From positions 1-64,000 of the forward strand of contig NZ_LMDK01000021.1 of assembly GCF_001425055.1 (NCBI RefSeq): a DNA stretch of 64,000 nucleotides, written 5' to 3'. The position numbers and the translations under genes were made by a program. The notes beneath the pieces were generated by a model, which did no database searches, had not been told where the DNA came from, and saw nothing but the letters and a program-made list of their open reading frames with translations. How positions within the stretch are numbered: the first letter of the stretch is position 1; each line of letters begins with the position of its first letter. Positions 6,267 to 38,856 of the stretch are shown here, one piece after another. This DNA comes from Pelomonas sp. Root1237 (lineage in GTDB: Bacteria > Pseudomonadota > Gammaproteobacteria > Burkholderiales > Burkholderiaceae_C).

Positions 6267-8717
6267 ATGAAGAAGATGAAGCTCGTGATGGTGGGCAACG
6301 GCATGGCCGGCGTGCGCACGCTGGAGGAGCTGCTGAAGATCACGCCGGATCTCTACGACATCACCGTATTCGGTGCCGAGCCGCACCCCAACTACAACCG
6401 CATCCTGCTCAGCCCTGTGCTGGCCGGCGAGCAGACGATCGAAGAGATCATCCTGAACCCGCTCTCCTGGTATGAGGAGAACGGCATCACGCTGCACCTG
6501 GGCAAGACGGTCACCGAGATCGATCGCGTGCGCCGCCGCGTCATCGCGGCCGACGGCACGACGGCGGAATACGACCGCCTGCTGATCGCCACCGGCTCGA
6601 ATCCCTTCGTGCTGCCGGTGCCTGGCAAGGATCTGGATGGCGTCATCGCCTACCGCGATATTGCCGACACCAACGCCATGATCGACGCGGCGACGAAATA
6701 CAAGCACGCCGTCGTCATCGGCGGTGGCCTGCTCGGCCTGGAAGCCGCCAACGGGCTGATGCTGCGCGGCATGCAGGTCACGGTCGTGCACCTGGTCGAC
6801 ACGCTGATGGAGCGCCAGCTCGACGGCGTCGCCGGCGACCTGCTGCGCAAGTCGCTGGTCGACCGCGGCCTGACCTTCATGCTGGGCGCGCAGACGCAGG
6901 AACTGGTGGCCGGCCCCTCGGGCCGGGTCCAGGCCATCAAGCTCAAGGGCAAGGACGGTCAGGTCATCGACGTACCGGCCGACCTCGTCGTCATGGCCGC
7001 CGGCATTCGCCCCAACACCGCGTTGGCCGAGAAAGCAGGCTTGCATTGCAGCCGCGGCATCGTCGTCACCGACACGATGCAGACGGTGACCGACCCCCGC
7101 GTCTACTCGGTGGGCGAATGCGCCGCCCACCGCGGCATTGCCTATGGCCTGGTCGCGCCACTGTTCGAGCAGGGCAAAGTCTGCGCCACCCACCTGGCCC
7201 AGTTCGGCATCGGCCGCTACCTCGGCTCCTCGGTCAGCACCAAGCTCAAGGTCACCGGCATCGACCTCTTCAGTGCCGGCAACTTCACCGGCGGCGCGGG
7301 CACCGAAGAGATCGTCATGAGCGACCCCTTCGCCGGCGTCTACAAGAAGCTCGTCATCCAGAACGACCAGCTCGTCGGCGCCTGCCTGTATGGCGACACG
7401 GTGGACGGCGGCTGGTACTTCAAGCTGCTGCGCGAGGGCCGCAAGATCGGTGACATCCGCGACAAGCTGATGTTCGGCGAGGCGGGGGCCAACATCGGCG
7501 ACGTCGGCCACCAGGGCGTCAGCCGCGCGGCCGCGATGGCCGACACGGACGAGGTCTGTGGCTGCAACGGCGTCGCCAAGGGCACCATCTGCAAGGCCAT
7601 CCGCGACAAGGGCCTGTTCACGCTGGACGAGGTGCGCAAGCACACCAAGGCGAGCGCGAGCTGCGGCAGCTGCACCGGGCTGGTCGAACAGCTCATCATG
7701 TTCACCGCCGGCGGCGACTACTCGGCCACGCCGAAGAAAAAGGCCATCTGCGCCTGCACCGACGCCAGCCACCAGGACGCCCGCGACACGATTCGCCTGG
7801 CGCATCTGCTGACCTCGGCCGAGGTGTTCCGCGCGCTGGACTGGAAGACGCCCAATGGCTGCGCCACCTGCCGCCCGGCCGTCAACTACTACCTGATCTC
7901 GACCTGGCCCAAGGAGGCCATCGACGACCCGCAGAGCCGCTACATCAACGAGCGTTCGCACGCCAACATCCAGAAGGACGGCCGCTACTCGGTCATCCCG
8001 CGCATGTGGGGCGGCGAGACGACGAGCTCGGAGCTGCGCCGCATTGCCGACGCGGTGGACAAGTATCAGATCCCCACCGTCAAGGTCACCGGCGGCCAGC
8101 GCATCGACCTGCTGGGCGTGAAGAAGGAAGACCTCGTCAACGTCTGGAAGGACATCGGCATGCCCTCCGGCCATGCCTATGCCAAGGCGCTGCGCACGGT
8201 GAAGACCTGCGTGGGCAGCGAATGGTGCCGCTTCGGCACGCAGGACTCGACGCAGATGGGCAAGGACCTGGAGCGGGCGCTGTGGCGCATGTACGCGCCG
8301 CACAAGGTCAAGATCGCCGTGTCGGGCTGCCCGCGCAACTGCGCGGAGGCCGGCATCAAGGACGTCGGCGTCATCGGCGTCGACTCGGGCTGGGAGATCT
8401 ACGTTGCCGGCAACGGCGGCATCAAGACCGAGGTGGCCGAGTTCTTCTGCAAGCTGAAGACGCCGGAGGAGGTGCTGGAGTACAGCGGCGCCTTCCTGCA
8501 ACTCTACCGGCTGGAGGGCTGGTACCTGGAGCGCACGGTGCATTACGTCGCCCGGGTCGGCCTGGATCATGTGAAGAAGAAGATCCTCGAGGACGCCGAC
8601 AACCGCAAGGCGTTGTGGGCGCAGCTGCAGTTCAGCCTGGACGGTGAGCCCGACCCGTGGTTCGACTTCGACAAGGCCCACGTGGACCTGCGCCAGTTCG
8701 ACAAGGTGGCCGTCTGA
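6267..8717 (+). CDS. nirB: nitrite reductase [NAD(P)H], large subunit
   Basis: An 816-residue cytoplasmic assimilatory nitrite reductase that reduces nitrite to ammonium. The N-terminal half is an FAD/NAD(P) pyridine-nucleotide oxidoreductase domain. BFD-like [2Fe-2S] Cys motifs follow, beginning at C431/C433 (CGCNG). Then comes the sulfite/nitrite reductase domain with the [4Fe-4S]/siroheme ligands C648, C654, C688 and C692 (CVGSEWC ... CPRNC). The ATG at 6267 is chosen over the ATG four codons upstream because GGAG lies seven bases before it. The gene heads a run of genes nirB, pilJ-domain, nirD, nitrate reductase and SUMT, all on the same strand. Confidence 0.96.
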   Translation: MKKMKLVMVGNGMAGVRTLEELLKITPDLYDITVFGAEPHPNYNRILLSPVLAGEQTIEEIILNPLSWYEENGITLHLGKTVTEIDRVRRRVIAADGTTAEYDRLLIATGSNPFVLPVPGKDLDGVIAYRDIADTNAMIDAATKYKHAVVIGGGLLGLEAANGLMLRGMQVTVVHLVDTLMERQLDGVAGDLLRKSLVDRGLTFMLGAQTQELVAGPSGRVQAIKLKGKDGQVIDVPADLVVMAAGIRPNTALAEKAGLHCSRGIVVTDTMQTVTDPRVYSVGECAAHRGIAYGLVAPLFEQGKVCATHLAQFGIGRYLGSSVSTKLKVTGIDLFSAGNFTGGAGTEEIVMSDPFAGVYKKLVIQNDQLVGACLYGDTVDGGWYFKLLREGRKIGDIRDKLMFGEAGANIGDVGHQGVSRAAAMADTDEVCGCNGVAKGTICKAIRDKGLFTLDEVRKHTKASASCGSCTGLVEQLIMFTAGGDYSATPKKKAICACTDASHQDARDTIRLAHLLTSAEVFRALDWKTPNGCATCRPAVNYYLISTWPKEAIDDPQSRYINERSHANIQKDGRYSVIPRMWGGETTSSELRRIADAVDKYQIPTVKVTGGQRIDLLGVKKEDLVNVWKDIGMPSGHAYAKALRTVKTCVGSEWCRFGTQDSTQMGKDLERALWRMYAPHKVKIAVSGCPRNCAEAGIKDVGVIGVDSGWEIYVAGNGGIKTEVAEFFCKLKTPEEVLEYSGAFLQLYRLEGWYLERTVHYVARVGLDHVKKKILEDADNRKALWAQLQFSLDGEPDPWFDFDKAHVDLRQFDKVAV

Positions 8718-9490
8718 TGCTGAACCGCCGCGTCATTCTTCTCGCGAGCCTGGCCTCCGGGCCCGCCCTGGCTCAGAGCCGCATCAGCCAGCTCGGCGAA
8801 GCCATCGACAAGGCCGGCGCCCAGCGCATGCTCAGCCAGCGCATGGGCAAGGCCTGGCTGGGCCAGCTGCGCCCCGAGCTGGCGCCGCGTGCGCGCCAGG
8901 TGCTGGAGGCCAGCGAGGCCCGCTTCGAGCGCCAGTTGAGCGAACTGCTCGCCTTTGCGCCCACGCCCGAGATCGCCGGCAGCTACAAGGCCATGCAGCA
9001 CCGCTTTGGCGACTACCGCGCCTTGCTGCAGAGCAAGCCCAGCCGCGAGCGCGTCGACGAACTGCTGCAAACATCCGGCGAAATGCTCAGCCTGGCCCAC
9101 GTCGCCACCGGCCAACTGCAGCAGCGCTCCACCACGGCGACCGCGATGCTGGTCAACATGTCGGGCCGGCAGCGCATGCTGTCGCAGCGACTGGCCCTGT
9201 TCTTCATGGCCGGCCAGCAGGGCGCTCGATCCGACGTCGTGAGCAAGGAAACGGTCAAGGCCCGCGCCGAGTTCGAGACCGCCATGCGCGTGCTGGCTTC
9301 GGCCCCTGAAGGAACGCCCGCCATCCGCGACAACCTGGATCTTGCACGCAACCAATGGGTCTTCTTGCAGTCGGCACTGGCCGGCGAGAGCCAGGGGCCG
9401 GAAACGGCCAGCAACGTCTTCGTGGCGAGCGAGAACCTGCTCGCCGTGATGGAAACCGTGACGGGGCAGTTTGCCCGCCAACTGGCATGA
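8717..9490 (+). CDS. periplasmic PilJ-type (nitrate-sensor-like) domain protein
   Basis: A 257-residue protein whose start codon overlaps the nirB stop (TGATG), so the two are translationally coupled. A signal peptide (MLNRRVILLASLASGPALA) sends it to the periplasm. The mature protein is helical and has two copies of the PilJ/P-box-like motif, AGAQRMLSQR (33-42) and SGRQRMLSQR (149-158). The same motif occurs in the cytoplasmic ANTAR regulator at 676-1932, so the locus encodes the module on both sides of the membrane. It has no membrane helix or output domain; binding nitrate or nitrite in the periplasm is inferred. Confidence 0.8.
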   Translation: MLNRRVILLASLASGPALAQSRISQLGEAIDKAGAQRMLSQRMGKAWLGQLRPELAPRARQVLEASEARFERQLSELLAFAPTPEIAGSYKAMQHRFGDYRALLQSKPSRERVDELLQTSGEMLSLAHVATGQLQQRSTTATAMLVNMSGRQRMLSQRLALFFMAGQQGARSDVVSKETVKARAEFETAMRVLASAPEGTPAIRDNLDLARNQWVFLQSALAGESQGPETASNVFVASENLLAVMETVTGQFARQLA

Positions 9491-9494
9491 ATCT

Positions 9495-9713
9495 GCCCCT
9501 CGCCCAGCCTCGCGTCGCTGAACGCGAGCGAGTCCAGTCGGTCTTGCAGACCGCGCTGCGGCTCGCGCCGCAGCCCTTCGGCAGGCACAAGCCGCCCACT
9601 GGGCGCCTTGTGTCCGGCCTCAGCCCCCGCGGGGACGGCGATGCTTGCCGGATCGACCGGCAAGCACATCGCCAGCGCGGGCCGGCTAGGGAGCGGCCCG
9701 TCGCTCGGCCCGT
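9495..9713 (+). repeat. structured intergenic repeat, copy 2 (long form)
   Basis: Begins four bases after the stop of the PilJ-domain gene with GCCCCTCG. It carries an extra hairpin GCTGCGGC/GCCGCAGC and the core hairpin 9637-9651 / 9657-9673 with loop ATCGA, and ends at CTCGGCCCG. The gap from here to nirD (9714-9745) is short. Confidence 0.8.
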
Positions 9714-23792: not shown

Positions 23793-24512
23793 TCAGAGAA
23801 GATCAGTCCTCGCACCGGGCCAGTCTGCAGCGGCCGCGATGGCGGCGGCCTTGAAGTTCGCCGCCTGCAGCAACAGATCGACCACCTGCCCAGCCAGTAG
23901 CTTTCCTGCTAGCGAATCGCTCGGGTAGTGCAGGCCGGCCACCTCACGGTTTAGGGCGATATCGGCAGCGGCGGCCAGCAACTTGTCCGTCAATTGCGGA
24001 AAGAGGCGCGCATAGAAGTAGGCCAGCGCGTGCGCCTGCGTCGAATGTCCGCTGGGATAGGCAGGGTGGGCAGGATAGAACGGCGCGCCCTTGGGGTACA
24101 TCGGTTCAACGTCCTCGCAGCACATGAACGGGCGCCCCCGGCTGAACACCCGCTTGAAGTAGTAGATCGGGCGGTCGAGGTTGTCGTACAGCAACCTCAG
24201 CGCGGTCCACGTGGCGGGCTTGGTTCCGAACACCAGCGGCCCGACGATGGCCTGGATCGTTTCAGTTGCCGAATACACGGTGCCTTCTGCCTGCTGGCAG
24301 ATCGCAGTCTTCCTGGCCGGCCTCTCGACCTTCAGCTCAACCAGGTATCGGCATTCGTAGGCCTGTCTCCGCTGCGGCGGTACGGCCAACGTGATCAGGC
24401 TGCGCCAGTTCAGGGGCAGGTCTGGCGGATTGCGCCCGGCATCCGTCAATAGATCGGGTTTCCATTCGCCATCCGCAAACAGACAGTCATCTGCGCAAGG
24501 ACATTCGCTCAT
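23793..24512 (-). CDS. PAP2-superfamily phosphatase
   Basis: A 239-residue protein with the three-part PAP2/vanadium-haloperoxidase motif: KRVFSRGRPF, PSGHSTQAHALAYF and NREVAGLHYPSDSLAG, giving the catalytic His residues. It lacks obvious membrane helices, so it looks like a soluble class A acid phosphatase-type enzyme. The N-terminus (MSECPCADDC) is Cys-rich and carries no signal peptide. A 97-residue gene of unknown function lies 51 bp upstream on the same strand and may share its transcript. Confidence 0.8.
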   Translation of the reverse strand: MSECPCADDCLFADGEWKPDLLTDAGRNPPDLPLNWRSLITLAVPPQRRQAYECRYLVELKVERPARKTAICQQAEGTVYSATETIQAIVGPLVFGTKPATWTALRLLYDNLDRPIYYFKRVFSRGRPFMCCEDVEPMYPKGAPFYPAHPAYPSGHSTQAHALAYFYARLFPQLTDKLLAAAADIALNREVAGLHYPSDSLAGKLLAGQVVDLLLQAANFKAAAIAAAADWPGARTDLL

Positions 24513-28222: not shown

Positions 28223-28896
28223 GCCGGCACCGGCTCTTCGAAGCACAGTCCCATGCGACTCGCAGCCAGTACGGCCTGGGTGCGCGTCGTCACGTTCAAT
28301 GCCCGCAGCACGCACGAGGTGTGCGCCTTGACGGTACTGAGCGACAGGTTCAGCTGCCGACCGATCAGTTTGGCCGGTTTGCCCTGCAGCAGCAGATGCA
28401 GCACGTCGGCCTGGCGCGGTGTCAGGCCCAGCTCGACGGGGCGCCGCCCCTGCGCAGGCGGTGCCAGCGGTGCCGGCATGGCGGGAGTCAGCGCACGGCC
28501 GCCGAGGAACACCGACGACGGCAGGTAGATGCCCTTGGCAAGGATGAGGCGCAGCGCACCCAGCATGACCTGCGACGTCGAGCTCTTGGGAATGAAGCCC
28601 ATCGCACCCGCATCTAGCACGGCAAGCACCGTGTCCTTGTCATCGGCCGAGGACATCACGACGACCGGCACCTCAGGATGATCACGCCGCAGCCGGCCCA
28701 GACCCTCGAGACCAGACAGCCCTGGCAGGCCGAGGTCGATCATGACCAGATCGGCGTCGCCGCGCTCGGCAAGCACCGCAAAGGCCTCCTCGCAACTGCC
28801 CGCCTCCCAGGTTTCAAGTGCTTCCACCAGTGGTTTCAGCAGCAGTGCCACGCCTTCTCGGAACAGGGGGTGATCATCAATCAACAGAACTTTCAT
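28168..28896 (-). CDS. NarL/FixJ-type response regulator
   Basis: A 242-residue regulator with a receiver domain (MKVLLIDDHP, phospho-acceptor Asp54 in VMIDLGLPG) and a C-terminal LuxR-type HTH (LTPRQADVLHLLLQGKPAKL). The start is MKVLLIDDH because a GGGAGA site lies just before it. It is convergent with the Cache hybrid kinase and overlaps its 3' end by 55 bp, so antisense contact between the transcripts is possible. Confidence 0.88.
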   Translation of the reverse strand: MKVLLIDDHPLFREGVALLLKPLVEALETWEAGSCEEAFAVLAERGDADLVMIDLGLPGLSGLEGLGRLRRDHPEVPVVVMSSADDKDTVLAVLDAGAMGFIPKSSTSQVMLGALRLILAKGIYLPSSVFLGGRALTPAMPAPLAPPAQGRRPVELGLTPRQADVLHLLLQGKPAKLIGRQLNLSLSTVKAHTSCVLRALNVTTRTQAVLAASRMGLCFEEPVPAQGSAVDANDSLMASSNR

Positions 28897-29102
28897 CGGC
28901 AGTCTCCCGCTGGGCTGCATGGTATCGGCGCAGGAACGCGCCATCGTGGATTGCGGGTAAGCCTTTTGGCCAGGCCTTTTGGTCTATGCGCGGTGGCATG
29001 GGTTGGTGTGCTTCTAGGCAATGGCGATGCCGGCTTGCAATCACCAAACTTGATGACATCAACGAGGGCGCCTTTGCGCCACACAGGCTCAGGGAGATCC
29101 AA

Positions 29103-29735
29103 ATGCTGCAAGCTGTTCCCGTCGCATACACCGAACGCCGAGTCGGCCACGAAGCCCAGCCACGCCAGGTGCTGGGCGCCCTGCCCCAACCGCTGATGGT
29201 GCTGCTGCCCGATCGGCGCCTTCTGTTCGTCAACACGAGTGCGGAGCACTTGCTGGCAGAGGGACTCTGGCAGTCGCGGTCCGAACACCTGATGGGCCTG
29301 GGGCAGCTGGACGCACAGCGCCTGGGCGAGGTGCTGGCGCTGGCGGCCGCGGGCTCGTCCTCGCGCACCGGGCTGTGGTTCACGCCCAGCTTTGCGACCG
29401 GCTGGCTGCACGCGGCGCCGCTTGCGCCGGCCATCAGCAGTGCCTCGGGCTGGCCTGACGGCTGCCTGCTGCTCGTCATCCATCTGGACCAGCCGGTGCT
29501 GACCCAGGCCGCACGCATCGACGCGCTGACCCGCCAGTGCCGCCTCAGCCAGGCCGAACGCCACGTGCTGATGCTGCTGGCCGACGGTGAGCCGGTGGAG
29601 GCCGCCTCCCGTCACCTCGGTCTGTGCGTCAGCACCGTGCGCAGCCATGTGCGCAACCTGCTGGGCAAGACGCAGGCACCGTCGCTGATGCAATTGCTGC
29701 GCTGGACGGGCAGCGCGCAGATGCTGCCGCACTGA
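29103..29735 (+). CDS. LuxR-type HTH regulator with N-terminal PAS-like region
   Basis: A 210-residue protein. The N-terminal ~130 residues resemble a degenerate PAS fold (PQPLMVLLPDRRLLFVNTSA), and the C-terminus is a LuxR-type HTH (LSQAERHVLMLLADGEP ... STVRSHVRNLLGK). There is no receiver domain. The ATG at 29103 follows GGGAGA. It sits between two hybrid kinases and may serve either. Confidence 0.8.
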   Translation: MLQAVPVAYTERRVGHEAQPRQVLGALPQPLMVLLPDRRLLFVNTSAEHLLAEGLWQSRSEHLMGLGQLDAQRLGEVLALAAAGSSSRTGLWFTPSFATGWLHAAPLAPAISSASGWPDGCLLLVIHLDQPVLTQAARIDALTRQCRLSQAERHVLMLLADGEPVEAASRHLGLCVSTVRSHVRNLLGKTQAPSLMQLLRWTGSAQMLPH

Positions 29736-29853: not shown

Positions 29854-31758
29854 GTGCGATCAGAAACTCGAACCGACGACGAGCGGCAGGATGAGCTGAT
29901 CCAATCCTTCATCTATGGGCGCTTCGAGGACATCTTCCTCAGCCAGAGCCTGCGTGCGCAGGTCGGCATGCTGCTCGCGGCGAGCTTGATCGCCTTCATC
30001 TGGTTGAACCGTACGCAAGCATGGCCGCCTGTCGCCTGGGAGGCTGCCGTGATCGCGGTCACCGGATGGCGCATGCGCTACACGACCAAGTTCGTACGCG
30101 CCGCTACCGAGGGCACCGGCTCCATGCGCCGCATCGCCTGGCTGCTGGCCATCAATGGCGTGCTGATGGCCGTGCCCCTGGTGGCTTTCGGCGGTTTCGA
30201 CGCCACCGAGCGTGCGGCCATCTCCATCATCCTGCTGTCGTCGGCAACCGCCTCGACCGTCACCACCTCAGGCCACCGCTCCCTGTTCCTGGCGTTTGCC
30301 GCGCCCATGCTCATCCCCCTGGCCGGGACCTGGATGTTTCTCGGCGGCCTGCAGAACCCAAGCCCGGGGGAGTGGTGGCTCGCGGGGTTGATCATCGTGT
30401 TCCTGCTCTTCCTGGTCGGCCTGGGCAAGCAGGTCAACAAGGTGTTCGAGGAATCAAGCAAATATCGCTACGGCGAACAGCAGCTCAATGCCAAGCTGAC
30501 GAGGGCACTGCAGCAGGCTGAAGAGCACCGTCTGGTTGAACAGCAACTCAATGCAGAGCTGACGCAGGCACTGCAACGCGCTGACGAGCACCACCAGGTT
30601 GAACAGCAGCTCAACGCCAAGCTGACGCTGGCATTGCAACGCGCCGATGAGTCCAACCGGGCCAAGACCAAGTTTCTTGCAGCCGCCAGCCACGACCTGC
30701 GCCAGCCGCTGCACGTGATGACCGTATGGCTCGGCGTGCTGCGGCAATCCAAGATCGACGAGGACACGCGCGGCATCGTGAACAAGCTGGAGTCGATGAA
30801 CCAGGCCTTGTCCAAGCAACTCGAAGGCCTGCTGGACATTTCCAAGCTCGACGCCGACATCGTCACGCCCAGACTCGCGCCCTGCAGCCTCGATGCGCTG
30901 CTGACCGGGCACCAGCAGGCCATGGAACCCGTGGCACACCTCAAGGGCATCCACCTGGAACTGCAGTGTGACGAGAGCCTCGCGGTAGCGACCGACGAGA
31001 CACTCTTCTCCCGCATCCTGCGAAACCTCACGGACAACGCGCTCAAGTTCACGCGCCGTGGAGGCAGCGTCCGCCTATCCCTGCAACGAGACGGCGATGA
31101 CGCAGTGCTGAGCGTGGCCGATTCAGGCGTGGGCATTGCAGAGAAGGAACTCGAATATGTCTTCCAGGAGTTCTATCAAGTGGCAAGCACGGAGCGGGAC
31201 CGCTCCGAAGGCCTGGGGCTGGGCTTGTCCATCGTTCGTCGCCTGTGTGCCCTCCTCGGCGTGCAGTTGGCCCTGGAATCCAAGTTCGGCGTCGGCACCA
31301 CGTTCAAGCTGAGGCTTCCCCTTTCCAGCCTCGAAGAAGAACCCGTCATTGAAATCGCGGCGCCCGAGGTGGTGGGCTTGTCGGTGCTGGTCATCGACGA
31401 CGAACTGGACGTCCGCGAGAGCACCCAGGCCCTGCTGCGCGGCTGCAATGTGCATCTGGCCGCATCTGGCGCAGAGGCGCTCAAGATCGCTCAGGCCGTC
31501 TTCATCGACGTGATCCTGTCTGACCTGCGCCTGCGAGACGGCGAGAGCGGCATTGACGTCATCCAGCAGCTGCACTTGGTGCGCCCAGAGGCACACGCCG
31601 TCATCATCACCGGAGACACCGCACCGCAACGGTTGCGCACGGTCATATCGGCCGGCATCCCGCTGATGATCAAGCCCGTTGATCCCCAAAAGGTCGTCCG
31701 CGATTTCAATATTTCCAGCCGACCAAGCCAGCAAGAAGCCAGCTCACCAGGGAGGTGA
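29854..31758 (+). CDS. hybrid sensor histidine kinase with integral-membrane sensor
   Basis: A 634-residue kinase starting at GTG 29854 (GGGAG about 10 bases before). The N-terminal ~200 residues contain about six hydrophobic helices and no large periplasmic loop. Three identical-length 21-residue repeats (208-270) form a coiled coil, then HisKA with His280 (AAASHDLRQP), HATPase, and a receiver with Asp557 (LSDLRLRDG). Its stop codon lies inside the strong ribosome-binding site of the large fusion gene that follows, so the two are translationally coupled. Confidence 0.9.
   Translation: MRSETRTDDERQDELIQSFIYGRFEDIFLSQSLRAQVGMLLAASLIAFIWLNRTQAWPPVAWEAAVIAVTGWRMRYTTKFVRAATEGTGSMRRIAWLLAINGVLMAVPLVAFGGFDATERAAISIILLSSATASTVTTSGHRSLFLAFAAPMLIPLAGTWMFLGGLQNPSPGEWWLAGLIIVFLLFLVGLGKQVNKVFEESSKYRYGEQQLNAKLTRALQQAEEHRLVEQQLNAELTQALQRADEHHQVEQQLNAKLTLALQRADESNRAKTKFLAAASHDLRQPLHVMTVWLGVLRQSKIDEDTRGIVNKLESMNQALSKQLEGLLDISKLDADIVTPRLAPCSLDALLTGHQQAMEPVAHLKGIHLELQCDESLAVATDETLFSRILRNLTDNALKFTRRGGSVRLSLQRDGDDAVLSVADSGVGIAEKELEYVFQEFYQVASTERDRSEGLGLGLSIVRRLCALLGVQLALESKFGVGTTFKLRLPLSSLEEEPVIEIAAPEVVGLSVLVIDDELDVRESTQALLRGCNVHLAASGAEALKIAQAVFIDVILSDLRLRDGESGIDVIQQLHLVRPEAHAVIITGDTAPQRLRTVISAGIPLMIKPVDPQKVVRDFNISSRPSQQEASSPGR
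30475..30663 (+). repeat. three in-frame 63-bp repeats (coiled coil)
   Basis: Units at 30475-30537, 30538-30600 and 30601-30663 each encode a 21-residue unit of the form EQQLNAKLTxALQxA. That is exactly three heptads, so copy number can change without breaking the register of the signalling helix. Confidence 0.85.
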
Positions 31759-31764
31759 TCGGAC

Positions 31765-34700
31765 ATGAACAGCGGCAGCACCACGGCGGCTCCGGCCGCA
31801 GGACAACGCCTGTCCCAAGGGCTCGGCGAGCTCTGGACCTCTGACGTCGACAAGCGTCGCTTCGACGTGCTGATCGTCGGCAGCGGCTACGGCGGCAGCA
31901 TGGCCGCCGCCGAGCTGGCGGGAAGGAGCTCGGGCACCACCGGCAAGCCGTTGCGGATCGGCCTGCTGGAACGGGGCAAGGAATACCTGCCGGGCGAGTT
32001 CCCGTCGCACTTCAGCGAGCTGCCGGGACACATGCGCATGGGGCAGCAGCAGACGGGGCGCGTGGGCGGCAAGCACGAAGGCTTGTTCGACCTGCGCCTG
32101 GGGGAAGACGTGAACGCTCTCGTCGCGAATGGGCTGGGCGGCGGCTCGCTGATCAATGCGGGCGTGCTGCTGAAGCCAAAGCTGACAGACCTTCCCCCCG
32201 GCGATTTGCACGAGCTGGTCTACGAACTGGAGCAGGCCGGGCTGTTCAAGGAGGCCAAGTACCTGTTGGGTGGCTTTGCGATACGCAACAAACGGCAGGT
32301 GCGCAACAGAATCACCCTCCACCCGGGCGCCAGCAACAAAAGCGGATTGCCCAAGACCGAGGCACTGAGCAAGCTCTCCAGCCGCGCAGCTGATATGCCG
32401 CCCTTGTCGGTAGCCATGGCCAACGAAGCCAATTCGGCGCAGGTCAAGCTCAACCAATGCACGCTCTGCGGCGATTGCATGACAGGCTGCAACATTGGCG
32501 CCAAGAACAGCCTGGATGCCAACCTGCTGGAGCTGGCCAAGTGGCGCGAGGCGGAAATCTATACCGGCGCCACGGTGCTGTCCCTGCGACGCAGCGACAA
32601 GGACGATCCACACTGGCGAGGCAGGCCCGATTGGGTCGTACGCGTCGTGCATACATCGCCTGCGCTGCAGCAGCGAGAGCCGAAAGAGCTCCACCTGTAT
32701 GCAGACACGGTCATCCTCGCGGCAGGCACGCTGGGCAGCAGCGAGATCCTGCTGCGCTCCCGCACCGACAAGCTGGTGTTTTCGTCCCGGCTCGGCGAGC
32801 GCTTCTCATGCAATGGCGACAACATCGCCGCCGTGGCCCAGATGCCCGAGGCAACAAAGGGCTGCGCGGATGAACAAGTCGGGTTGAAGGATCGAGGGGT
32901 CGGCCCGACCATCACCGGCTCCATCACGGTGCCCGTTTCGGCAAAAGTGAAGCGGCCTTTCCGCATCCAGGAGTTCTCGGTACCCGGCCCGCTGAAGCCG
33001 TTGTTCGAGCAACTCGTCACCACGGCCAGCCTGATCCACCGCATGCCGGAAGGCGACTCCACAAGGCATGGCGCGGAAGGCGCCGGCACCGATCCCCTGG
33101 CCGTGGACTCGACGGCCATGGGCAAGACGCTGCTGGTCGGCGTCATCGGCCACGACGATGCCGCGGGCTCGTTGCACTTGCCGCGGCCGTTGCGCCCGCG
33201 CGACCGGCCCGCCGAGCCGGGCACGTTGAGCATTCACTGGCCCGAGGCCCGCAAGGCCCGCGACCTCACCCAGGCGCATGAGGAGCTGGAACGGCGCGCG
33301 CTGGATGTGAAGCCGGCCGCCCGGCTCATCGCCAACCCGATGTGGCGGTTGCTGCCGCCCAAGCTGGAGCAACTCGTCACCCAGCCACGCGGCCCCGTGC
33401 TGACGGTGCATCCACTCGGTGGCTGCCCCATGGCCAAGACGGCGGCCGATGGCGTGGTTGACCGCTTCGGCCGCGTCTTTGACGCAGGCCGGGAGCGACT
33501 GCCCAATGATGAGCCCATCCATGACGGCCTGCTGGTACTGGACGGCTCCATCATCCCGGGGTCGTTGGGAGCCAACCCGGCGCTGACCATCGCCGCGACA
33601 GCCTTGCGCGCGGTGCGCCGGCACTGGGAAAGTTTTCCTCCCGCCAGTTCGCTTCCGCCACTGCGCAATCGCCGCATGGCACAGCCGGACGACACCCGCC
33701 CCAACGCGCCTTTGCGGCCGACGGAGATCGAGATCGTCGAGCGCCTTGTCGGCACGGTTCCCCTGCAGTTCAACACGACGCTACCCCAACCGCATGTGGT
33801 GGAGCTGACGCTGGCCTACGAACGTTTCCATCCCGAGGATCTGCGCACGCCGATGAACCGCAAGGTGGAAGTCAGGCCGGGCCACAGCTCGGTCATCCGC
33901 ATCTTTGAACAAAGCACCTGGGACGAAAAACACTTGCGCGTGGCCAGTGATGCTCAGCGCGAGCAGCACATCAAATTCAAGGCGGAACTGCGCGGCGATC
34001 TGCGCTTCCTGCACCGTGAGCGCTCTTCGTCGCTGAAGCGCCGGTTGCGCACCCTTGTCCCATGGGCGTTGAACCGGGGCCTGCGGGACATCGTCCAGAA
34101 GATCAAGGAGCCGAACAAGACCAGCGCCGGCCTGCAGGACTGGCTCGAGTACGCGGGTGACCTGTGGCGCATGGCCTCGCGCGCAGGCGAGGTTCGCCGC
34201 TTTGACTACGAGCTCTACGTGGGCAAGGTGCTCATGCCCTGGGAAGACGCAGAGGGCCCTCGCGAAGGCCAGGGCATCTCCGGCGTCAAGCGCCTGACCT
34301 ACGACCGCCGTGCCAACCCCTGGCACCAGCTCACCCGACTCTCCCTTACGCGCATGCCGGGCATGCCGAACAGCCAGCGGCCCCTCCTTGAACTCGACAT
34401 GCGCTTTCTCGCCAGCCAGGGCTTCCCGCTGCTGCGCATCACGGGTCAGCAGGACCACGCCCGCGCGCTGCTGGACCTCGCCTGCTTCGGCCTGCTGTGG
34501 CTGCGTGTGCTGATCAGCATCCATCTGTGGACCTTCCGCAAGCCCGACACGCCGTCGCTGAAAGAACCCGACCGCTTGCCGCGGCCCATTGCGGGCCTGC
34601 CCTCACCCGAGATCACCGAACTGTGGGTGGACCGCATGCCCGGGCCCTACGAGGAAGCCATCCAGGATCCGCGCCCCGCTGCAGGTCGATGCCGGCCCTC

Positions 34701-37527
34701 GCTCATCGACTTCTGCAAGAACAGCGGCGATGTGCCCGTCAAGATCCGGCTGACCCGCTACCTGCCACCGCCCACCGTGGAGCGCCGCGGTCGGCCGCTG
34801 GTCATGCTGCACGGCTACAGCGTGAGCGGCAACACCTTCACACACGAATCATTGGCGCCCAACAGCGCGGCGGAGTTCTTCTGCCGCCAGGGCCGCGAGG
34901 TGTGGGTGGTTGACCTGCGCACCAGCACCGCGCTCGCCACCGCCACCTACCCCTGGCCGATGGAGCAGGCCGCGCTGGTCGACATCCCCGCGGCGCTGCT
35001 GCACATCCGCAATGCCACCGGCAAGGAAGTCGACGTGCTCGCGCACTGCATCGGCTGCGTGATGCTGAGCATGGCCTTGCTCACCGACCCGCGCAAGGTG
35101 CGCTCAGGCGTGACGCAACTCAGCGTCGACTCCTGGCTGACCACGGAGCACCTCGCCACGCTCACCGCTTTCAACGGTGCCGAGCCGCCGGCAAAAGGCG
35201 CCAGCCACCCTTGCGTGCACCGCGTCATCCTGAGCCAGAAGGGCCCGCTGCTGCGCTACACCGACAGCAACATCTTCCGCGCCTTCGTGCTGCAGTCGGC
35301 CCGGCGGCTGCTGATGAAGGACGACTATCAGTTCCGCCCGCCTCGCGAGCCCAAGGTTGCCGATCAGCTGCTGGACCGCCTGCTGGCGAGCCTCCCCTAC
35401 CCCGACGCAGACTACGACGTCGAGAACCCGCTGTGGCCCTTCAAGACCACACCCTGGGTCGCCTCGCGCCACCGCATGGACGCGCTCTACGGACGCGACT
35501 TCGATGCCGCCAATCTCAGCGATGAGACGCTCGAGGCCATCGACGACCTGTTCGGCCCCATCAACCTGGAGACCGTGGCCCAGACCATCCACTTCACGCG
35601 CTTCCAGGTCATCACCAACCAGCGCGGCCGTGGCGAGTTCGTGACACGTCGACAGCTGCGCGAGCGCTGGAGTCCAATCCCGACCATGATCATCCATGGT
35701 CAGCACAACGGGCTGGTCGACGTGAACACGCAGGACCTACTGGGAAGCCACCTAGCCGGTGCCGGTGTGCGCCTGGACCATCCCAAACCCGATGAGGGGC
35801 CGTATGCGAACCTGGGCCATCAGGACGTGCTCATCGGCAGGGATTCGCTTCCTGTCTTCGAAGACCTTGAGCGCTTCCTGAGCTTGAAGGACGACGAGCT
35901 TCCTGACCCGCTCGAGCCCGAAGAGGCGAGGCATGTCTTCCTTTCGCCATGGATCGGGCCCCGCATCGCGTTGTCCGACAAGGCGACGAGCGTCGTCCGG
36001 CTGGCCTGCATGTCCCACCCCGTTCAGGGTCGGGCGACGCTTTGCCTGTTCCCGGTGTCTCAAGCCGGTGGTCAATTCAAGCTGGGGCAAAACCCGGCCG
36101 GCGTGGTCGTCGGCGACGACGACAACAGTGAGCGATGGCTGTTCGCCCAGCCCGCCGTTCCTTCGGACGGCAGCACCGGGTCAGACTATCTCGCCTTGCT
36201 GGCGTATGCCCGTGACGAGGTGGTCGACTGCGAGGAAGCATGGCCATTCATCCCGCAGCCGACGTCGGCCAACCCTCCTTCGGGCCTGCGCGCGCTGCTG
36301 GTCGCGCAGCCCTTGGAAACCGCCAAGCTCCTTCAGCAAGCCCAGGAGTGGGTGAAGCTCCAGCCCACCGCGGTGCTGCAGAACGCCTTCGTCAAGGCCG
36401 GGGCCTTGGCGGCGGCCTTGAGCCAGCACACCGCCACCTCACCGCAATATGGCACCCGTTTCGCGCTGGCCAGCTGCCAGTACCCCGCCGGCCTCATGGA
36501 TGGCCCGGTAGCACAGGCCAACCTGCAGCAGCTGGCTGACACCACGCTCGAGGGCCCGCAGGTGGGTTTCGCGCTGCTGGTCGGCGATCAGATCTACGCC
36601 GACGCCACTGCCGGCCTCATGGACCCGATGCGCCGCGACGAACGCTACGACCAGCCTCACCAGAAGGCCCTGCGCGCCAGCGGCATGCGCAGCCTGCTGC
36701 GCAGCATGCCGGTGCAGATGCTGCTGGACGACCATGAGATCGTAGACAACTGGGAACCCACGCCGGAGAAGGTCGAACAGGCGCGCCCCATTGATGCATT
36801 GCGCAACCGCCTGCTGCGGCGCCACGGCTTCAGCGCCTTCCGCCGATACCAACGCATGGCCCATGGGCGTTTCAGTCATTCCGCGACCGCCGACATGCAT
36901 TTCCTGCATGCCGGCTTCCCCTTCTATCTGGCTGACACGCGCACCGGGCGCACGGCACGCGGTTCCACCGTGCCGCAAGCGCAGCAGTCCATCCTGAGCC
37001 ATCGCCAGGAACAACGCCTGCAGGCCTGGCTCAAGCGCCACCGCGAGGCCGTGAAGTTCGTGGCCACACCCTCCCTGCTGCTGCCCCGCCGCCTGCAGAC
37101 CAAGCAAGACCCCGCAGGCGGCGCGCGCCACAGCGATGCCTGGGACGGCTTCCCAGCCTCGCTGGAAAGGCTGCTGACCTTCATCGCCGAGAACGGGATC
37201 ACCAACACGGTGTTCCTGTCGGGCGATGAGCATCACAGCCTGGTCGCGGAGATCGAGATCACCGCGTCGAGCGGCAGGGCGGCGAAGGTCCTCTCCGTCC
37301 ACAGCTCGGGCCTCTACGCGCCCTTCCCGTTCGCCAACGGCCGTCCGAGCGATCTGGTGCTGAACGAGACCTTCCCGCAAGGCGAGCTGACGGTGAAGGT
37401 CACCTCACACCTCGCCCAGACGGGTGATGGTTATGCAATCCTCCACACCAATGGCATCGACCTCGACGTGGAGTTCAGCCGCCCGGGCGGCGCCCCGCCG
37501 AAAACCATCAGCAAGCGGCTGGTTTGA
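31765..37527 (+). CDS. GMC oxidoreductase / alpha-beta hydrolase / PhoD-like phosphatase triple fusion
   Basis: A single 1920-residue protein. Residues 1-620 form an FAD-dependent GMC oxidoreductase of the cholesterol-oxidase type (GSGYGG 39-44; HPLGGCPMA near 549; GSLGANPALTIAA near 600), with an inserted C232-x2-C235-x2-C238-x3-C242 cluster. About 640-1000 is of unknown fold with a hydrophobic helix near 902-925. About 1005-1390 is an alpha/beta hydrolase: LHGYSVSG near 1015, nucleophile elbow AHCIG with Cys1095, acid Asp1319, His1352 (GHQD). About 1560-1900 is PhoD-like (GDQIYAD with Asp1608; LDDHEIVDNW; SGDEHH with Asp1821). There is no signal peptide. GGAGGTGA sits six bases before the ATG and overlaps the upstream kinase stop. 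The substrate is unknown; an oxidised, esterified and phosphorylated lipid or polymer is a guess. Confidence 0.85.
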   Translation: MNSGSTTAAPAAGQRLSQGLGELWTSDVDKRRFDVLIVGSGYGGSMAAAELAGRSSGTTGKPLRIGLLERGKEYLPGEFPSHFSELPGHMRMGQQQTGRVGGKHEGLFDLRLGEDVNALVANGLGGGSLINAGVLLKPKLTDLPPGDLHELVYELEQAGLFKEAKYLLGGFAIRNKRQVRNRITLHPGASNKSGLPKTEALSKLSSRAADMPPLSVAMANEANSAQVKLNQCTLCGDCMTGCNIGAKNSLDANLLELAKWREAEIYTGATVLSLRRSDKDDPHWRGRPDWVVRVVHTSPALQQREPKELHLYADTVILAAGTLGSSEILLRSRTDKLVFSSRLGERFSCNGDNIAAVAQMPEATKGCADEQVGLKDRGVGPTITGSITVPVSAKVKRPFRIQEFSVPGPLKPLFEQLVTTASLIHRMPEGDSTRHGAEGAGTDPLAVDSTAMGKTLLVGVIGHDDAAGSLHLPRPLRPRDRPAEPGTLSIHWPEARKARDLTQAHEELERRALDVKPAARLIANPMWRLLPPKLEQLVTQPRGPVLTVHPLGGCPMAKTAADGVVDRFGRVFDAGRERLPNDEPIHDGLLVLDGSIIPGSLGANPALTIAATALRAVRRHWESFPPASSLPPLRNRRMAQPDDTRPNAPLRPTEIEIVERLVGTVPLQFNTTLPQPHVVELTLAYERFHPEDLRTPMNRKVEVRPGHSSVIRIFEQSTWDEKHLRVASDAQREQHIKFKAELRGDLRFLHRERSSSLKRRLRTLVPWALNRGLRDIVQKIKEPNKTSAGLQDWLEYAGDLWRMASRAGEVRRFDYELYVGKVLMPWEDAEGPREGQGISGVKRLTYDRRANPWHQLTRLSLTRMPGMPNSQRPLLELDMRFLASQGFPLLRITGQQDHARALLDLACFGLLWLRVLISIHLWTFRKPDTPSLKEPDRLPRPIAGLPSPEITELWVDRMPGPYEEAIQDPRPAAGRCRPSLIDFCKNSGDVPVKIRLTRYLPPPTVERRGRPLVMLHGYSVSGNTFTHESLAPNSAAEFFCRQGREVWVVDLRTSTALATATYPWPMEQAALVDIPAALLHIRNATGKEVDVLAHCIGCVMLSMALLTDPRKVRSGVTQLSVDSWLTTEHLATLTAFNGAEPPAKGASHPCVHRVILSQKGPLLRYTDSNIFRAFVLQSARRLLMKDDYQFRPPREPKVADQLLDRLLASLPYPDADYDVENPLWPFKTTPWVASRHRMDALYGRDFDAANLSDETLEAIDDLFGPINLETVAQTIHFTRFQVITNQRGRGEFVTRRQLRERWSPIPTMIIHGQHNGLVDVNTQDLLGSHLAGAGVRLDHPKPDEGPYANLGHQDVLIGRDSLPVFEDLERFLSLKDDELPDPLEPEEARHVFLSPWIGPRIALSDKATSVVRLACMSHPVQGRATLCLFPVSQAGGQFKLGQNPAGVVVGDDDNSERWLFAQPAVPSDGSTGSDYLALLAYARDEVVDCEEAWPFIPQPTSANPPSGLRALLVAQPLETAKLLQQAQEWVKLQPTAVLQNAFVKAGALAAALSQHTATSPQYGTRFALASCQYPAGLMDGPVAQANLQQLADTTLEGPQVGFALLVGDQIYADATAGLMDPMRRDERYDQPHQKALRASGMRSLLRSMPVQMLLDDHEIVDNWEPTPEKVEQARPIDALRNRLLRRHGFSAFRRYQRMAHGRFSHSATADMHFLHAGFPFYLADTRTGRTARGSTVPQAQQSILSHRQEQRLQAWLKRHREAVKFVATPSLLLPRRLQTKQDPAGGARHSDAWDGFPASLERLLTFIAENGITNTVFLSGDEHHSLVAEIEITASSGRAAKVLSVHSSGLYAPFPFANGRPSDLVLNETFPQGELTVKVTSHLAQTGDGYAILHTNGIDLDVEFSRPGGAPPKTISKRLV

Positions 37528-37530
37528 ACC

Positions 37531-38852
37531 TCAGAGGATGAACCGACTCAAATCCTCATTTGCCGCCAACGCGCCCAGCTTCGCATCCACCGCGGCCGCA
37601 TCGATGACCACGGTCTGACCCGAGTTGCGCGGCGCGTCGAAGCTGATCTCGTCGAGCAGCCTTTCCATCACCGTCGCCAGCCGCCGCGCGCCGATGTTCT
37701 CGGTGCGCTCGTTCACCTCGAAGGCGATCTCGGCCAGGCGGCGAATGGCCGCGGGCTGCAGGTCCAGCGTGACGCCTTCGGTGGCCAGCAGGGCCTGGTA
37801 CTGCTTGACGAGGCTGGCGTGGGTGCTGGTCAGGATGGCTTCGAAATCAGCGACCGACAACGAATCCAGCTCGACGCGAATGGGCAGGCGGCCCTGCAGC
37901 TCGGGGATGAGGTCGCTGGGCTTGGCCAGGTGGAAGGCGCCACTGGCGATGAAGAGGATGTGGTCGGTCCTGACGAGGCCGTACTTGGTCGACACCGTCG
38001 TGCCTTCGACCAACGGCAGCAGGTCGCGCTGCACGCCCTGGCGCGAGACCTCGGCGCCACCGTGTTCGTTGCGCGATGCCACCTTGTCGATCTCGTCGAT
38101 GAAGACGATGCCCATCTCCTGGGCATTGGCCAGCGCCGCGGCGCGGATCTCCTCCTCGTTGACGAGCTTGGCCGCTTCCTCTTCGATGAGCAACCTCATC
38201 GCTTCGGCGACCTTGAGCTTGCGCGTCTTCTTCTGAGTGCCGCCGAACTGGCTGAACATGCCCTTCAGTTGTTCGGCCATGTCCTCCATGCCTGGCTGGT
38301 TGCCGAAGGGGCCGAGCACTTCCATCGTGGGCCTGGGGGCGAGCAGGTCGAGCTCGATGTCCTTGTCGTCGAGCTGGCCCTCGCGCAGGCGCTTGCGCAG
38401 GGTCTGGCGCGTCGCGTTGTCTCCGTCCTGCGAGCTCGGGCTGCCCGGCAACAGTATCTGCAGGATGCGCTCCTCGGCGGCGTCCTCGGCGCGCGTCTGG
38501 CAGCGGCGCATGGCCCCCTCGCGCTCCTGCTTGACGGCGACCTCGATCAGGTCACGGATGATGGAGTCCACATCCTTGCCGACATAGCCGACCTCGGTGA
38601 ACTTGGTCGCCTCGACCTTGATGAAGGGCGCGCCGGCCAGCTTGGCCAGGCGGCGGGCGATCTCGGTCTTGCCAACGCCGGTCGGGCCGATCATCAGGAT
38701 GTTCTTGGGCGTGATCTCGCCGCGCAGCTTCTCATCGACCTGCTGGCGGCGCCAGCGGTTGCGCATCGCGATGGCGACGGCGCGCTTGGCGGCCTGCTGG
38801 CCGACGATGTGGCGGTCCAGCTCGGAGACGATTTCCTGTGGGGTCATCGAAC

Positions 38853-38856
<4 letters not shown>
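37531..38856 (-). CDS. hslU: ATP-dependent protease ATPase subunit HslU
   Basis: A 441-residue AAA+ unfoldase of the HslUV protease, with Walker A GPTGVGKT (57-64), the I-domain, Walker B ([11 protein letters not shown]) and the C-terminal [15 protein letters not shown] that docks into HslV. Its start overlaps the hslV stop. It converges on the triple-fusion gene with three bases between the stops. Confidence 0.97.

Follow-up and report, generated by a model that had tools for sequence, protein, structure and literature searches.

What does a protein that joins a GMC oxidoreductase, an alpha/beta hydrolase and a PhoD-like phosphatase do in the cell, and with what does it work? Such a protein is encoded in a 64,000-nucleotide stretch of Pelomonas sp. 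Root1237 (positions 1 to 64,000 of contig NZ_LMDK01000021.1, assembly GCF_001425055.1; hereafter the window), where a first-pass annotation had recognized the fusion and proposed a sequential pathway on one hydrophobic substrate. We find that the PhoD part has repeatedly been joined to or separated from the rest of the enzyme, and that a membrane sensor kinase, absent from the first-pass account, is encoded beside it in most loci. Tentatively, with a probability of roughly 0.45, we read the protein as a sensor-linked, probably cytoplasmic lipid-processing multienzyme that works with the adjacent kinase family.

Three catalytic modules in one reading frame

The open reading frame (ORF) contains no internal stop, and its GC content at third codon positions (GC3) is uniform from end to end. 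In Pfam searches GMC_oxred_N (31.5 bits against a cut-off of 23), GMC_oxred_C (41.5 against 24.6) and PhoD (87.4 against 27) score above threshold, and Abhydrolase_1 falls slightly under it. With the active-site residues retained as described below, the three catalytic modules in one uninterrupted frame stand as annotated. A query of the Pelomonas genome with the whole protein returned the window ORF as its sole copy; the genome encodes two further PhoD-family proteins.

Table 1. Features of the window and of two related loci (L037, L114)
Feature	Position	Strand	Basis
NarL/LuxR-type response regulator, 258 aa	28168..28944	-	domain match
Hybrid sensor histidine kinase, 634 aa, ending 6 nt before the enzyme's ATG	29854..31758	+	Pfam, N-terminal-domain profile, hydropathy
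63-bp repeat, 2.8 copies, 21-aa unit (three heptads), in the kinase coiled-coil linker	30475..30651	+	repeat analysis
Triple-enzyme ORF, 1920 aa: GMC, barrel, Cys alpha/beta hydrolase, PhoD	31765..37527	+	ORF list, Pfam, own profile models
GMC oxidoreductase module, ~residues 30-627, cholesterol-oxidase-like; invariant H549, N604	31852..33645	+	Pfam, NCBIfam, nearest solved relative, alignment
Cysteine motif C232-x2-C235-x2-C238-x3-C242, probable Fe-S site	32458..32490	+	alignment, BcGDH spacing
Beta-barrel domain without a Pfam name, ~residues 642-974	33688..34686	+	AlphaFold, hhalign, fold matches
Alpha/beta hydrolase module, ~residues 1003-1381, acid-lipase fold	34771..35907	+	fold match, alignment
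Nucleophile Cys1095	35047-35049	+	alignment
Asn1315, usual acid position	35707-35709	+	alignment, motif
His1352	35818-35820	+	alignment
PhoD-like metallophosphatase module, ~residues 1545-1915; ASCQY 1569, GDQIY 1607, DDHE 1655, GDEHH 1820	36397..37509	+	Pfam, motifs
Cyclase/AAA gene, divergent from enzyme	L114:3603-7613	-	domain match
Cyclase/AAA gene, divergent from enzyme	L037:3544-7662	-	domain match

By sequence, the nearest solved relative of the GMC module is cholesterol oxidase, and H549 and N604, which we take to correspond to the active-site His/Asn pair of that enzyme, are present in 28 of 28 aligned sequences. Membership of the NCBIfam cholesterol oxidase equivalog was rejected, its model scoring 121 bits against a cut-off of 850. 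Within the cysteine motif, C232, C238 and C242 occur in all 28 sequences and C235 in 27; the three invariant residues match the spacing (6 and 4) of the 3Fe-4S ligands, C-x5-C-x3-C, given in an excerpt on the Burkholderia cepacia FAD glucose dehydrogenase BcGDH (PMC6719666), and the motif is probably an iron-sulfur (Fe-S) cluster site. The barrel domain that follows is modeled by AlphaFold at a pLDDT of 82.9 and has weak fold matches to small barrels, and its second half is homologous to the interdomain of GMC-hydrolases that lack PhoD (hhalign, 96.9%). Possibly it carries a hydrophobic ligand.

The hydrolase module has the acid/gastric lipase fold, with lysosomal acid lipase as its closest solved relative. 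Acid and gastric lipases use a Ser nucleophile and an Asp acid; that classical set was rejected here, as a Cys1095 nucleophile and Asn1315, the latter placed at the acid position by motif and by its location after a strand rather than by residue mapping, are kept in 28 of 28 sequences. A match of the module to the PhaC sequence family of PHA synthases, which are Cys acyltransferases, was sought and not found. Since the module carries Cys/His/Asn in place of Ser/His/Asp, acyl transfer appears as likely as hydrolysis. Open frames of 350-390 aa akin to this module alone occur in L069, L070, L072, L076, L080 and L083 (L designating loci), and all except L076 keep the Cys nucleophile.

In the PhoD module, the metal-site motif residues are conserved in 26 of 26 rows. 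The PhoD exemplars in an excerpt of PMC4223295, B. subtilis PhoD and S. chromofuscus phospholipase D, are phosphodiesterases, which makes removal of a head group as likely as dephosphorylation. A simple hydropathy scan, with no signal-peptide predictor run, found no N-terminal hydrophobic or export segment in the enzyme, and this suggests that the protein is probably cytoplasmic.

Repeated joining and separation of PhoD

A pattern scan of a species-genome collection with the enzyme as query gave 48 matches, 44 of which were confirmed, and loci were typed with profile models built from the confirmed matches' own alignment. GMC, barrel and hydrolase are present in 31 of the 44; the remaining 13 show PhoD alone, some of them ended by a contig edge. 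Sixteen of the 31 enzyme loci have PhoD fused, and in the other 15 it is encoded by the following gene, in the same orientation; the separate neighboring homologs for which the first-pass annotation had suggested looking do exist. Roseateles depolymerans is a species with the split form. For 12 of these 15 loci, the earliest possible PhoD start overlaps the enzyme stop by 4 nt; spacing departs from this in L022 (a gap of about 0.6 kb) and L040 (an intervening 165-aa ORF). These split forms could suggest that a sequencing or assembly error had joined separate genes in the window, a concern also raised at first pass, but the recurrence of the fusion in other assemblies and the even GC3 refute this, and we give it practically no credence.

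At least four fusion or fission changes are required by a tree with 67 rows, 61 of them different (30 fused, 35 split, 2 unassigned), from which duplicate copies of the same places had been removed; four changes are forced by well-supported branches. The tree comes from a quick IQ-TREE search with SH-aLRT support only, and many long branches were flagged; L002 and L008 were scored as fused from open frames, and L005 and L098 were left unlabeled because the sequence end hides PhoD. That the same two genes have been joined or separated repeatedly is good evidence that PhoD belongs functionally with the GMC-barrel-hydrolase part.

With the barrel and hydrolase alignment as query, genomes matching at E<=1e-15 numbered 47 of 399 in the family, 11 of 369 in the class and 9 of 398 in the phylum, some of these matches being only PhoD-less double fusions or separate hydrolases. 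The enzyme is thus recurrent but patchy in its distribution. Among 72,556 plasmid records, seven match the query over 80% or more of its length, all from Ensifer; one of these copies is annotated 'alpha/beta fold hydrolase', and plasmid matches resembling the double fusions bear either that label or 'GMC oxidoreductase'. The PhoD-less GMC-hydrolase double fusions span 1147-1334 aa (10 loci). Only in L116 is there a weak PhoD-like gene alongside (8006-9556 (+), 43 bits), immediately after the double fusion, possibly a separate origin of the link.

Two further observations concern PhoD and its surroundings. In L127 (3-6762) the module is split over two overlapping frames, probably by a frameshift in a draft genome. 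The gene downstream of PhoD in L018 (13847-15493 (+)) and L033 has CYTH and CHAD domains, families linked with polyphosphate; in all, 10 Roseateles-type loci (L018 and nine others, two of them typed) have a similar gene at this place, which may be plain synteny.

A sensor kinase beside the enzyme

The HisKA (residues 270-334), HATPase (381-491) and receiver (511-615) domains of the upstream gene all pass their Pfam cut-offs, identifying a hybrid two-component kinase; they follow an unnamed N-terminal domain with multiple transmembrane (TM) segments. A profile of that membrane domain was applied to the 39 loci, window included, that have upstream sequence: L001-L009 and all scan loci but L025, which has none (30 of 31). 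In 36 of them a kinase of this family is encoded on the enzyme's strand and ends just before the enzyme begins. Only the enzyme served as query in collecting the loci, and several are closely related, so the 36 cases are not independent. In L008 the kinase is divergent, and L022 and L037 have none, although the contig end in L022 holds a hybrid-kinase tail. Twenty-two extra stretches supplied 11 barrel-profile loci with upstream sequence, among which the kinase is present in eight (L134 repeating the place of L009) and absent from L113, L114 and L128. Double fusions L121 and L122 have a kinase, on the opposite strand, and a regulator beside the enzyme, L124 has a weaker divergent kinase, and the other seven of the 10 have none. 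In L037 and L114 (Rhizobiales: Ensifer, Paramesorhizobium), the enzyme adjoins a divergent class III cyclase gene with AAA_16 and Guanylate_cyc domains.

Queried by itself, the kinase N-terminal domain has some match in 42 of 100 related genomes, and the window kinase is the only one in its own genome. Nine of the 11 strongest matches in the 100 genomes (E<1e-30) adjoin the enzyme; of the other two, one has no enzyme near (genome G032) and the downstream side of the second is hidden by a contig end (G028). A close kinase homolog without an enzyme alongside occurs at L137:9293-11299 (-). The linker repeat of the window kinase is represented by about one unit in relatives L013 and L014.

Sixteen of the 31 loci encode a regulator clearly like the LuxR-type one of the window, and five others give weaker matches. 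Between this regulator and the kinase lies an ORF (28818-29735 (+)) whose C-terminal domain is of the LuxR (GerE) type; its start overlaps the regulator ORF and is therefore probably annotated too early. More distant from the kinase are a gene for a PAP2-family phosphatase about 7 kb upstream of the enzyme (23796-24512 (-)) and a convergent gene (37531-38856 (-)), which we take to be hslU-like and whose end is separated by 3 nt from the stop of the enzyme.

Kinase and enzyme form a single 2443-aa ORF in L132, from G850, a one-contig genome and the only one of its genus compared. HisKA, HATPase_c, receiver, GMC_N, GMC_C and PhoD are above their Pfam cut-offs, Abhydrolase_1 is under its own (16.8 against 25.8 bits), and our hydrolase profile scores 242. 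G850 holds three kinase-enzyme units (L132, L148, L149), two of them near the contig's two ends; the end copies are 99.9% identical over 9.2 kb, with three gap openings and broken frames, and are probably one place assembled twice with insertion/deletion errors. Because these copies suggest such errors, and a run of six G stands at the kinase-enzyme junction of L132, we doubt the fusion and give it little weight.

Proposed function and its alternatives

In the reading we prefer, the membrane-bound kinase would work with the enzyme most simply by having it as output, the sensor setting its synthesis and perhaps its activity. The substrates would be hydrophobic, lipid-type molecules: the flavin GMC dehydrogenase would oxidize an alcohol, with a probable Fe-S relay, the barrel may hold or hand on the ligand, the acid-lipase-fold module would use its Cys-His-Asn set to cleave or transfer an acyl group, and PhoD would cut a phosphodiester or phosphomonoester. 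Both the lipid nature of the substrate and the control of the enzyme by the kinase, as opposed to a kinase that reads its product, are what we infer. It is more doubtful that the kinase works directly on or from the enzyme, through a receiver that switches it at the membrane or an enzyme that makes the kinase's lipid ligand. The receiver-switch variant would, we propose, be a two-component system with lipid chemistry as its output, beyond transcription alone; the kinase-receiver-GMC-barrel-hydrolase-PhoD ORF of L132, if not an assembly error, would be the most condensed form of such direct coupling.

Could the enzyme instead make or destroy a lipid-type signal sensed by its neighbor, the two forming a synthase-receptor pair? 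The adjoining multi-TM hybrid kinase, the frequent LuxR-type regulator, the other signaling protein beside the enzyme in two Rhizobiales and the patchy distribution are all consistent with this, but neither a signal nor an exporter is known, and both PhoD and the lipase-like part appear to be degradative; we think it unlikely. To much the same degree we disfavor a catabolic enzyme that oxidizes, hydrolyzes and dephosphorylates one hydrophobic substrate in turn, its kinase acting only as a transcriptional controller, a view near that of the first-pass annotation. The retained motifs and the constant linkage of GMC, barrel, hydrolase and PhoD fit it, and the functional coupling it implies is upheld by a PhoD fused or next downstream in 31 of 31 loci and by the repeated fusion and fission. 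The strict order of steps has no direct evidence, and PhoD-less relatives, a Cys/His/Asn set that differs from a plain esterase and the phosphodiesterase exemplars of PhoD count against it. Degradation of sterols or cholesteryl esters by a cholesterol oxidase joined to an acid lipase, to which the nearest solved relatives of the two modules point, is very improbable: it leaves PhoD without a part, the cholesterol oxidase model scores far too low, and there are no steroid genes among the typed neighbors. The Pelomonas genome also lacks a match to KshA_C, a weak single-marker test in which 0 of 14 control genomes pass the cut-off.

Each named domain belongs to a known family. In the literature searched we found neither the three families treated together, nor their link to a sensor kinase, nor a known role; of the first-pass caveat that the protein might be common with an established role, only the recurrence, in many species, holds. 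Were its product a signal, the locus would represent a new lipid-signal system across Beta-, Gamma- and Alphaproteobacteria. It raises the questions of whether the kinase sets lipid chemistry or reads its product, what role an acid-lipase fold with Cys-His-Asn has, and whether the PhoD module is cytoplasmic.

The enzyme both resembles and departs from known systems. It shares the GMC fold and invariant His/Asn pair with cholesterol oxidase-like enzymes, but adds an Fe-S-type cysteine motif and three more domains and scores far under their NCBIfam cut-off. Like BcGDH as excerpted (PMC6719666), it is a GMC enzyme with 3Fe-4S ligand spacing, although Cys235 is additional. Compared with the PhoD family as excerpted (PMC4223295), its module has the Pfam match and metal-site motifs but forms the C-terminal end of a fusion in which the hydropathy scan showed no export signal. 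Unlike lysosomal acid and gastric lipases, the hydrolase module has a Cys nucleophile and an Asn at the presumed acid position, and is fused. The GMC-hydrolase double fusions have the same module order, a homologous interdomain and the same Cys and Asn, yet lack PhoD and, in seven of 10 cases, a nearby kinase. To the enzymes of the RpfC/RpfF and CqsS/CqsA kinase-synthase pairs the window enzyme is unrelated, and no signal is known for it, but the layout is alike: a multi-TM hybrid kinase beside an enzyme acting on a small molecule.
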